Source: a virus. From it: DNA of 64,000 nt. The DNA lies in the IMG/VR virus record IMGVR_UViG_3300005549_000009, positions 1-64,000 of that record; one strand, given 5' to 3'. The position numbers and the translations under genes were made by a program. Positions within the stretch are counted from its first letter, which is position 1; each line of letters begins with the position of its first letter. Positions 5,352 through 49,880 of this stretch are shown here, piece after piece. The notes under the pieces are model-generated. The model saw only the letters and a list, made by a program, of their open reading frames with translations. It was not told the origin of the DNA and did no database searches.

Positions 5352-5384
5352 GGCGCTGAATGTGGATCATGGAACAATTTTAAA

Positions 5385-5732
5385 ATGAGCATCATCAAGA
5401 AGATGCGCAAACAGCATGCCGTTCTATGGATTCGTTCCGATGCTCCGGACCGGTTCGGCCGTTTCAGCTACGGGAGCCCGGCTCAGATCAAATGCCGCTG
5501 GGAAGATGTTGTGCAAGAGTTTCGCGACAGCCAAGGGCAAGCCACGGTTTCAAGATCGATTGTTTACGTGGACCGGATCATCAAAGCGGGGGACATGCTC
5601 AAACGCGGCGAGCTAGAAAGCGATACGCCGAGCGATCCACGGGACGAGCCTGAACTTGCCTGGGAAGTGCGCCGATTTGATCAGCTGCCCAAGCTCAACA
5701 ACAAAGAAACGCTCCTGACTGCCTACCTCTGA
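5385..5732 (+). CDS. head closure (neck) protein
   Basis: A 115-residue protein that resembles phage head-completion proteins, with 'DRFGRFSYGSPAQIKCRWED' near the N-terminus and 'VSRSIVYVDRIIKAGDML' in the centre, the beta-barrel core of head-closure proteins. It follows the connector and precedes a gp10-like neck protein, the standard siphovirus order apart from two inserted genes. Its stop overlaps the next ATG. Confidence 0.7.
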   Translation: MSIIKKMRKQHAVLWIRSDAPDRFGRFSYGSPAQIKCRWEDVVQEFRDSQGQATVSRSIVYVDRIIKAGDMLKRGELESDTPSDPRDEPELAWEVRRFDQLPKLNNKETLLTAYL

Positions 5733-20151: not shown

Positions 20152-20221
20152 TAGACGAGTTGCGGCGAGGTGCTACAGTGTCCGGCGTTAGACCGAACCG
20201 AGCCGATTACAAGGGAAAGAA
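20152..20221 (+). promoter_or_regulatory. candidate promoter and conserved leader before helicase
   Basis: TACAGT (20174-20179) is a -10-like box; TAGACG (20152-20157) is a weaker -35-like box 16 bp away. Downstream, ACCGAACCGAGCCGATTACA and an AAGGG ribosome site lead to ATG 20222. The same leader motif recurs before other genes. This marks the boundary between the long tail operon and the replication/modification genes. Confidence 0.45.
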
Positions 20222-27081: not shown

Positions 27082-27111
27082 TTACTTTTTCTCGTAGTTG
27101 GCCGATATACT
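27082..27111 (+). promoter_or_regulatory. candidate promoter TTACTT-N18-TATACT
   Basis: TTACTT (27082-27087) and TATACT (27106-27111) are 18 bp apart. The whole 30-bp segment is shared with 27899-27928 (same TTACTTTTT and GGCCGATATA). The -10 box ends 4 nt before ATG 27116, so a transcript from it would begin at or inside that start codon; an almost leaderless message is implied. Confidence 0.45.
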
Positions 27112-27880: not shown

Positions 27881-27908
27881 AAAGGTTCGAAACCACCTTT
27901 ACTTTTTG
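27881..27908 (+). terminator. rho-independent terminator candidate
   Basis: AAAGGT (27881-27886) pairs with ACCTTT (27895-27900) around an 8-nt loop, and ACTTTTT follows immediately. It lies just after the stop of the unknown gene and just before a promoter-like element. Confidence 0.5.
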
Positions 27909-27965
27909 ACTTGGGTGGCCGATATAGTTCTTGAAAGTCCGAACTGATTACAAGGGAAAGTTTTT
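27899..27965 (+). promoter_or_regulatory. candidate promoter TTACTT-N18-TATAGT plus conserved leader
   Basis: TTACTT (27899-27904) and TATAGT (27923-27928) are separated by 18 bp. The leader AGTCCGAACTGATTACAAGG and a long AAGGGAAAG ribosome site lead to ATG 27966. This is the clearest promoter-plus-leader in the window and matches the ones at 41262 and 46007. Confidence 0.55.
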
Positions 27966-28908: not shown

Positions 28909-29148
28909 ATGATCCCCACCGCTTCCCTCCTCCGCGCCGCTGGCCTCCAAGTGACCACCGGCTACCCTCCGCCCGGCCACCCGAAGCTGTTTGTGCGGTA
29001 TCCTAGAGCCAGTCACTGGCGGCAGCGGCTGGTCTGGCAGGAGCTGACTCCGGATATGTGGGAGCGGATGCAGGCGGCCGGGATCGTGAGCGGGTTTCTG
29101 GAGGGGAGCGGGGAAAGGCCGTCTTTTGAACCGCTGGTAAAGTCCTGA
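28909..29148 (+). CDS. small protein, unknown
   Basis: 79 residues with 'LLRAAGLQVTTGYPPPGHPKL' and a Trp-rich middle. AGAGGA precedes the ATG at a normal distance. It comes just before the leader of the Rad50-type gene. Function unknown. Confidence 0.5.
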   Translation: MIPTASLLRAAGLQVTTGYPPPGHPKLFVRYPRASHWRQRLVWQELTPDMWERMQAAGIVSGFLEGSGERPSFEPLVKS

Positions 29149-29168: not shown

Positions 29169-29188
29169 AGATCCGAACTGAGCTGATT
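29169..29188 (+). promoter_or_regulatory. conserved leader motif before Rad50-type gene
   Basis: ATCCGAACTGAGCTGATT directly precedes ATG 29189, identical in its core to the leader at 24933. A GCCGATAG element stands just upstream, but I see no convincing -35 box. Confidence 0.4.
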
Positions 29189-39056: not shown

Positions 39057-39101
39057 ATTTCCCGTTCCCGGACGAGCGATCCGCGTGGTTTCTGAGCATT
39101 C

Positions 39102-39218
39102 ATGCAGGTTCTGCGCCGCCATGACTCTGGGGACGGGAAGCTTTCGTTCCGTTGTAGCGACAAATGCCGATTCTCCCTGGAATACGGGTGGTTAGTAGCC
39201 ATGTCGGCATCGCGGTGA
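39102..39218 (+). CDS. possible short Cys-containing peptide
   Basis: A 38-residue frame from ATG 39102, with 'LSFRCSDKCRFSLEYGWLVA', reads like a small folded protein. No ribosome site is clear. A competing 23-residue frame begins at ATG 39053 with an ATGA overlap. Either may be the true product, or the gap 39057-39246 may be non-coding. Confidence 0.35.
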   Translation: MQVLRRHDSGDGKLSFRCSDKCRFSLEYGWLVAMSASR

Positions 39219-39246
39219 CCAGCGGAACGAATACTTTTAAAACGAT

Positions 39247-42872: not shown

Positions 42873-43088
42873 TACTTTTGGACTTGCTCTCCGACTCGAC
42901 CACGGGTTGGCAGAAGGCAGCAGGTCCGATTTCGGAGCCCAACTGGACGGGCTCCAGCTTAGCGGTAGATAGCGCCAGCTGCTTTTCAACATGCGGCAGC
43001 TGGAAGCCAGGGAACGCTGGGCAACTTTGGGCTCACGGATGAGCCCGCCTCCGGGGCATGGATGCCTCGGGGGATTTGTTTTACCTAT
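42873..43088 (+). ncRNA. structured non-coding region A, four stem-loops with terminator
   Basis: No convincing gene fits here. Stems in order: GGAGCCC/GGGCTCC (42934-42955, 8-nt loop), CCAGCTGC/GCAGCTGG (42975-43003, 13-nt loop), GGGCTCA/TGAGCCC (43029-43046, 4-nt loop) and a ~12-pair terminal hairpin from 43048 to 43073 followed by ATTTGTTTT. Four perfect or near-perfect stems in 150 nt, ending in a terminator, suggest a small RNA or a 5' leader with attenuation. No promoter was found. Folding is by eye. Confidence 0.5.
43048..43085 (+). terminator. rho-independent terminator of region A
   Basis: A hairpin of up to 12 pairs (43048-43059 with 43062-43073, two GU pairs, very short loop) is followed by ATTTGTTTT. 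It is the last stem of structured region A and lies 4 nt before ATG 43089. Confidence 0.65.
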
Positions 43089-45331: not shown

Positions 45332-45408
45332 TTTTATGCTGGCCTCAGAGGCTTTCGCCGTTCCCCTAACGGCACCTCCTTGGGTCTTTGGGGCCAGCAC
45401 CAAACTTT

Positions 45409-45627
45409 ATGAGCAAATGCATACACGTTAGGCTTCTCGCGAAGCGCATGAAATATAATGCTGGGTATCATGATGGCCGCCTCGGTCGTTACCAGAACCA
45501 AGACCATGAGCCGTATTACGTCATGGGCCACATCGAAGGGAAGAACGATGCCGAAGCGGGCCTCCCGCACGGCACGAGCAAGGCGGCATGGGACCGGAGC
45601 CGGGCGCGAATGAAGGAGGCAGCGTGA
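45409..45627 (+). CDS. small protein, unknown
   Basis: 72 residues from ATG 45409; TTG 45388 would add seven. 'AGYHDGRLGRYQNQDHEPYY' and 'GKNDAEAGLPHGTSK' are its core. The region before it (45332-45408) carries a GCCGTT/AACGGC hairpin at 45357-45373. An AGGAGG site serves the next gene from inside this one. Confidence 0.45.
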   Translation: MSKCIHVRLLAKRMKYNAGYHDGRLGRYQNQDHEPYYVMGHIEGKNDAEAGLPHGTSKAAWDRSRARMKEAA

Positions 45628-45863
45628 GCAAGAAGCGCAAGAAACCATGGCCCAAGCTTCCGAAGATTACCGCTGCTGAGCAGAAGGCACTGGACCAGAT
45701 TTTTGAGGACCTCAAATTGATAAAAAAGAGAGTCGATAGACTGAACAAGGGCCTCGGCTGCAAGCTCACTGCACAAGACAAACGGTTGCTTGCTCGGATA
45801 GCTCGCAAGGCTCGGCGCACAGTCGGCCAGCATCGTATCTTGAGTGAGATGTTGGTGGACTGA
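45624..45863 (+). CDS. small basic helical protein
   Basis: 79 residues from GTG 45624, which has a perfect AGGAGG ribosome site 4 nt upstream. Strongly Lys-rich ('KKRKKPWPKLPKITAAEQK') then a helical pair, so nucleic-acid binding is likely. It precedes structured region B. Confidence 0.55.
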   Translation: MSKKRKKPWPKLPKITAAEQKALDQIFEDLKLIKKRVDRLNKGLGCKLTAQDKRLLARIARKARRTVGQHRILSEMLVD

Positions 45864-45870
45864 ACTTTTG

Positions 45871-46000
45871 AAGACCGCTCCCCGACCGGGGCCGTGTGGC
45901 TCCTGTCGCGCTGGTCTCCACGGATAACCTGATTCACTCTCTTGTTATCGTGCGCGTGGAAGCCTGATCAAAAGGTAACTGCGACTAGGGGAGCGGTTTT
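45871..46000 (+). ncRNA. structured non-coding RNA candidate B (three-way junction)
   Basis: A 130-nt segment with no gene folds neatly: P1 (45871-45883 with 45988-46000, 13 pairs, 10 perfect), hairpin Pa GGGGCC/GGCTCC (45888-45903), P2 GTCGC/GCGAC (45905-45909 with 45981-45985), P3 TCCACG/CGTGGA and P4 GATAAC/GTTATC stacked on it with a 15-nt loop. Together about 42 pairs. Downstream is GGTTTTCTCC, weak for a terminator. A short alternative CCCC/GGGG hairpin at 45880-45891 would compete with P1. Folded by eye. Confidence 0.6.
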
Positions 46001-46006
46001 CTCCAA

Positions 46007-46078
46007 TTGACGCCGTAACGGGCAGCCTGTTACTGTTCCTGGGCAAAGACGGAACCGAACTGATCAAAGGAAAAAGGC
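46007..46078 (+). promoter_or_regulatory. candidate promoter TTGACG-N18-TACTGT plus conserved leader
   Basis: TTGACG (46007-46012) and TACTGT (46031-46036) are 18 bp apart, the same box and spacing as at 41262. The leader GGAACCGAACTGATC and the AAGG site lead to ATG 46079. It starts the operon with the endolysin. Confidence 0.6.
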
Positions 46079-46309
46079 ATGATAGACACGCATTTCGTAT
46101 TGGACACTCGTGGCCTCCGTTACCACGCCGTAAATGGGCACGGCTGCGGCTGCGCGGCCTGCGGGGAGCCGTTGCAATGGCAGACGCAACCGTTCTTGCT
46201 CACGATCAGCCACGAGCCGGGCATCTTCGTTACGTGGCCGCTGCATCAGAGTTGCGCGAGGCGGCGGATGCTGGTGCCGAGGGTGTGCGGGCGGGAGGTG
46301 TGTTCGTGA
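46079..46309 (+). CDS. small Cys/His protein, first gene of lysis-linked operon
   Basis: 76 residues with 'GHGCGCAACGEPLQWQ' and several later Cys, resembling a metal-binding protein. It follows promoter/leader 46007. Function unknown. Confidence 0.5.
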   Translation: MIDTHFVLDTRGLRYHAVNGHGCGCAACGEPLQWQTQPFLLTISHEPGIFVTWPLHQSCARRRMLVPRVCGREVCS

Positions 46310-49654: not shown

Positions 49655-49880
49655 AAAGAAACGCACTCCAGCAACCTGGGGCAGCATCTTTCGTAACGCG
49701 GTAGCTCGTGGCGAGGATCACGGTTACGCTGCTTCGCTGGCTGATGCTTGGGAACGACGGCAGGCGAAACGAGACTTTAACAAAACCAAAACGATGCCTC
49801 TTGCATCGCCGTCTGAACCGGTGAGAAGCCGTCTGGAGTCAGACCTAGCGGCGAGAAGCCGGGGCGGTGCAAGGGGCTGA
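49641..49880 (+). CDS. small basic protein, unknown
   Basis: 79 residues from TTG 49641, which has AAAGGA 6 nt upstream. 'MSQNKKKRTPATWGSIFRN' is basic. A shared weak helix follows. Function unknown; the TTG start is uncertain. Confidence 0.4.
   Translation: MSQNKKKRTPATWGSIFRNAVARGEDHGYAASLADAWERRQAKRDFNKTKTMPLASPSEPVRSRLESDLAARSRGGARG

Follow-up and report, generated by a model that had tools for sequence, protein, structure and literature searches.

A predicted branched, end-closed RNA structure in a gene gap of a viral genome: a possible long-looped terminator at the end of an operon

Background

The prediction of canonical intrinsic terminators allows for loops of 3-13 nt and a full length of no more than 59 nt (PMC1852404), and terminators that have been mapped show a median loop of 4 nt (PMC12207403). 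In the Cluster K mycobacteriophages, start-associated sequences (SAS) are accompanied by ESAS, imperfect inverted repeats of 17 bp whose spacer varies, located just upstream of the SAS (PMC3203893). Structured RNA following a stop codon, exemplified by the L17 downstream element of bacterial 3' UTRs, has been described as highly unusual in bacteria (PMC2864571). These systems provide the background against which we consider element B, a predicted end-closed RNA in the 67,082-base record of an uncultivated phage, of which a stretch of 64 kb (hereafter the window) was analysed. Nearly all genes in the window lie on the + strand.

In the packaging RNA (pRNA) of phi29-type phages, the two ends pair to enclose a multi-way junction. 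The ends of element B do the same, but it has no Rfam match, and both the kind of phage and the position in the genome are different. With intrinsic terminators as modelled by TransTermHP it shares a GC-rich perfect stem that runs into a U-run, a 5' flank that is A-rich in part and base-pairs with the U's, and a placement at the end of an operon; it departs from them in its loop of 104 nt (versus 3-13), its extent of 132 nt (versus at most 59) and the folding of this loop into three arms (PMC1852404). The resemblance to the SAS/ESAS system lies in a repeated start-associated motif with an inverted repeat upstream at some sites, whereas the sequences of both motif and repeat differ, the repeat is absent at most sites, and the spacer in element B is long and structured (PMC3203893). 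As with the L17 downstream element, we are dealing with a structured RNA after a stop codon; however, that element is conserved across species, while element B is an orphan without a sequence or Rfam match (PMC2864571).

We tentatively propose, at somewhat less than an even chance, that element B closes the upstream rightward operon, as a terminator or 3'-end structure with a branched shape and a long loop. Its role would then most likely be an ordinary one, the end of a transcript, and its shape the unusual part.

Results and discussion

The gap and the predicted fold

Element B lies in a gap of 215 nt (45864-46078), bounded by an upstream stop ending at 45863 and the next ATG at 46079, which bears out the first-pass annotation in calling this segment gene-free (Table 1). 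The codon score of the upstream gene is 0.054 per codon, against a gene mean of 0.104, and its product gave no significant family match (Pfam, PHROGs; nothing convincing). The downstream gene, also without a match in Pfam or PHROGs, is weakly supported because its codon score is -0.02. Cumulative GC skew takes no turn near 46 kb, and therefore lends no support to a replication origin there.

Table 1. Positions of the genes, signals and predicted RNA structures discussed in the text
Feature	Position	Strand	Description
Element C	42876-43075	+	five tandem hairpins in gap; -106.5 kcal/mol, z -6.15
Elements D/E	39058-39236	+	tandem end-closed structures in gap; closing helices of 15 and 12 pairs
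Element A	45337-45399	+	irregular hairpin of 18 pairs, z about -5; fills most of a 78-nt gap
Upstream small gene	45588-45863	+	91 aa; ORF list; ends 6 nt before element B
Element B	45870-46001	+	predicted end-closed branched RNA (folding); 132 nt
P1, 5' strand	45870-45883	+	GAAGACCGCTCCCC; pair probabilities 0.95-1.0
Arm P2	45888-45918	+	13 pairs, many G-U; probabilities 0.78-0.85
Arm P3	45919-45952	+	AUAAC/GUUAU core 0.86-0.99, lower pairs 0.47-0.80
Arm P4	45955-45983	+	probabilities 0.75-0.96
P1, 3' strand	45988-46001	+	GGGGAGCGGTTTTC; includes the U-run 45997-46000
Promoter-like site	46007-46036	+	TTGACG-N18-TACTGT; begins 5 nt after P1
Start-associated leader	46050-46064	+	CGGAACCGAACTGAT; one of several genome copies
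Downstream gene	46079-46309	+	76 aa; ORF list
Element F	49796-49877	+	closing helix of 15 pairs, z -5.05

The full-length element on the + strand has a minimum free energy (MFE) of -62.7 to -63.9 kcal/mol, with z about -4.5 to -5.5, and its MFE structure does not change between 20 and 45 C. This best fold is a cloverleaf-like four-way junction of the closing helix P1 and the three arms, in place of the three-way junction of the earlier description. That description also had a closing helix of 13 pairs; the helix is indeed present, with 14 consecutive pairs, one of them G-U and most of them G-C, so that its ends fall at 45870 and 46001. Pair probabilities in P1 are 0.95-1.0, and those in the three arms 0.75-0.99, except for a single pair at 0.47. 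The stacked arm that had been drawn from GATAAC/GTTATC and TCCACG/CGTGGA is not part of the MFE structure. A fold that has it, with UCCACG/CGUGGA (45917-45960) stacked on GATAAC/GTTATC, is 1.1 kcal/mol weaker (-62.8 versus -63.9), and given so small a gap both folds are possible from the sequence.

When growing prefixes of the element are folded, the inner arms come first, and P1 closes once its 3' strand has been made. Until 45990 the 5' strand of P1 is held in another hairpin, in which AGACC pairs with GGUCU; relative to the last prefix that still lacks P1 (-41.6), the complete fold (-63.9) gains about 22 kcal/mol. This early hairpin reflects the order of folding and is no evidence of a switch. 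The CCCC/GGGG hairpin, earlier taken as a hint of one, makes a weak case, with a cost of about 12 kcal/mol when it is forced (-52.0 versus -63.9).

How improbable the fold is

The 130 nt from 45871 to 46000 passed the control with shuffled sequences that had been proposed for them: on the + strand the MFE is -59.8 kcal/mol (z -4.47) and none of 200 dinucleotide shuffles folded as well, and on the opposite strand the z is -4.07. Most of this excess comes from P1. The inner 104 nt reach a z of only -1.9 to -2.0, or -1.86 when folded alone, and if P1 is kept constant while only the interior is shuffled the z is -1.9, with 18 of 500 shuffles as good.

The earlier description of element B was largely right, with the exception of its claim that perfect long-range pairing of this kind is improbable, which was overstated. 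Helices at least as stable as P1 and spanning 60-200 nt number three in the window, against a mean of 0.85 (0-4) in 20 shuffles of the whole 64 kb. The claim is rescued by position, because a 132-nt element would fit within a gap at only 2.2% of positions; the product of these two figures suggests that about 0.02 helices like P1 would be expected inside gaps. Among all 130-nt windows element B is the third strongest by regression z (-4.17), with others close to it, some of them in coding sequence.

Strong predicted structure is concentrated in the gaps in general. Windows with z<-3 make up 4.5% of the mostly-gap windows versus 0.2% of those in genes, which makes strong structure about 20 times commoner in gaps. 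Of 1437 long-range helices, the top four in stability (those of A, F, B and D) all lie in gaps, which hold only 3.4% of these helices. The enrichment is indicative rather than a proof, because the gene calls are rough, combining a simple codon score with hand additions made after element B had been inspected, and because it depends on the mask: under a blanket mask, which counts any ORF of at least 100 aa on either strand as coding, helix F alone of the strong helices in the window is still non-coding, since the remaining gaps are overlapped by improbable antisense ORFs.

It is here that chance has to be weighed, namely that element B is a GC-rich spacer which folds well by coincidence and was picked by a reader for its pairing ends. 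We consider this unlikely, albeit deserving of serious attention: a shuffled 64 kb is expected to yield nearly one helix as stable as P1, the regression z of element B is approached in coding sequence, and its inner arms are marginal. Chance becomes less likely because P1 sits in a real gap, where strong structure concentrates and where the expected number of such helices is close to nil; that the four leading helices without exception fall in gaps, and that P1 carries a U-run and abuts a promoter, also speaks against it.

The promoter and the start-associated leader

The promoter and conserved leader that had been reported directly downstream of element B were both recovered. The promoter-like layout TTGACG-N18-TACTGT gave one match, as against 0.08 expected in shuffles, and the same layout is present at 20152 and 41262, so that three leader sites have such a site; the promoters at 20152 and 41262 are not preceded by a structure resembling element B. 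The leader consensus CCGAACTGAGCTGAT occurs at 9 sites with at most 3 mismatches (2.2 expected), with copies just before start codons at 20193, 24937, 29173, 41305 and 46050 and a shorter form at 27939. Some of the start codons preceded by it have no Shine-Dalgarno-like stretch. As a bait in viral contigs the motif retrieved three unrelated sites only.

Two further observations concern repeated sequences of this genome. The inverted repeats at 28919-29111 and 45870-46001 (+) carry, in their 3' arms, the only exact copies of AGGGGAGCGG in the window. Moreover, TTACTTTTT-N-TGGCCGATATA is repeated at 27082-27110 and 27899-27928 (+), and is possibly a second type of promoter of this phage.

Upstream of 45870 we found no phage-like promoter (no site of at least 10/12 in or just before 45.8-45.87 kb), and element B is accordingly expected to be transcribed at the end of the upstream operon. 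This bears on the suggestion that it might be a stand-alone or processed RNA of about 130 nt, with a promoter of its own or cleaved from the upstream mRNA, and with a trans-acting or protein-binding role. The compact fold with paired ends, the U-rich 3' end and the strong z would suit such an RNA. The missing promoter, inner arms that reach only a z of about -2 and the failure to find an Rfam match or a homologue make it rather unlikely, and the first-pass annotation is not supported on this point. Its other suggestion, a structured 5' or 3' element of the neighbouring messages, fared better, the 3' element of the upstream message being the version that fits best.

The leader also raises the possibility of an ESAS-like arrangement, in which the arms of P1 would be a regulator's site paired with the leader downstream. 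The leader motif is repeated and start-associated, and at two of its six sites, 46050 and 29173, a strong inverted repeat including AGGGGAGCGG lies 54-62 nt upstream, the one at 29173 ending in AGGGGAGCGG 62 nt upstream. The other four sites lack an inverted repeat, AGGGGAGCGG with one mismatch is not over-represented (9 versus 6.25), the repeat at 29173 falls in coding sequence, and no repeat consensus is common to the sites. We therefore regard this arrangement as improbable.

Search for relatives and known families

Searches of Rfam with element B returned no hits at the gathering score and none at E<=10; blastn against phages gave only 27-nt chance matches, and patterns of the closing helix in viral contigs gave chance matches, none with the fold of element B. 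A covariance model of the element, which reaches only near relatives because it was built from one sequence, detected only element B itself over about 50 related records and 76 sources. Relatives were also sought via the terminase, a lysozyme-like gene, a 217-aa gene, a UvrD-like helicase, a DUF5131 gene and a genome scan, in collections that may lack records very close to the window, and none was found with the element B region; the nearest, L016 (71% in the terminase), is a contig that stops short of it. The fold and function of element B are without evolutionary support.

Three kinds of mobile or guide-associated element were rejected. The reverse transcriptase profile PF00078, expected with a retron msr-msd RNA, has no match in the 67-kb record, and PF07282, expected with a TnpB/Cas12f guide RNA, has none in the genome, although both profiles detect their controls. 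A MITE-like insertion was dismissed for want of matching flanks (target-site duplication) and of a second copy in the window or record.

Other structured gaps

Several gaps besides that of element B hold strong predicted structures (Table 1). Element A is not directly followed by a U-run on either strand. The last hairpin of element C (43048-43073) is followed by ATTTGTTTT in a terminator-like manner, and element C is a stronger structured-RNA candidate than element B. The tandem structures D/E have z values of -2.7 and -3.8, and element F lies in a gap or at the end of a possible 79-aa ORF that overlaps it. In L016 an end-closed structure of 129 nt occupies the gap behind the terminase (5356-5484, z -3.4), with no sequence likeness to element B. 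A 10-mer, GGTTAGTAGC, is common to two other structured gaps, which is within chance. That A, B, C, D/E, F and the structure in L016 are sequence-unrelated, end-closed structured RNAs filling the gaps of this lineage, and form a non-coding RNA layer undescribed for such phages, is in our estimation a long shot.

Element B as a terminator

If element B is a terminator, P1, with its 3' strand running into the U-run, would act as the intrinsic terminator stem, and the oversized loop of 104 nt, by folding into three arms, would bring the two strands of P1 together. Read-through into the promoter at 46007 would thereby be stopped or weakened, and this promoter would start a new transcription unit with the start-associated leader. 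The computation gives the fold, its position in the gap, a U-run confined to the + side and, further downstream, the promoter-like site and the leader; transcription of element B, timely closure of P1 and a halt of RNA polymerase at this point are inferred.

The terminator reading draws on the following. 1) P1 is GC-rich, closes with a probability near 1 and runs into UUUUC. 2) The U-run is on the + strand side, the direction of nearly all genes, its counterpart on the - strand being TCTTC. 3) The element is placed between the upstream stop and the promoter-leader layout. 4) The stretch from the upstream gene to the element shows no promoter of this kind. 5) Strong structure is concentrated in the gaps. 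6) The inner arms precede P1 in the prefix folds. The U-run after P1 is short (UUUUCU), and TTTTCTCC has a tail value of 3.53. The window has 3 long stems with TTTT behind them, versus 0.76 per shuffle, and since such combinations arise in shuffled sequence the U-run alone is no strong evidence. The initial engagement of the 5' strand of P1 in another hairpin also counts against termination, as does the lack of a comparable structure ahead of the promoters at 20152 and 41262. As element B fails the size rules for canonical terminators, we do not file it as one, though it may work like one.

A 3'-UTR element for stability or processing (an exonuclease block or a double-strand RNase site), or a regulated attenuator with AGACC/GGUCU as its second state, is very improbable, since the final fold so far exceeds the last one without P1, notwithstanding the stability of the alternative that detains the 5' strand and the long stems without a U-run that both this phage and L016 have in further gaps.

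Conclusions

If element B does terminate transcription, it would be a terminator invisible to the standard programs, because its stem encloses 104 folded nucleotides, and terminators of this kind would be missed across phage genomes. More broadly, the concentration of strong predicted RNA structure in the few gene gaps of this phage amounts to a testable claim on how the transcripts of this virus are organised.
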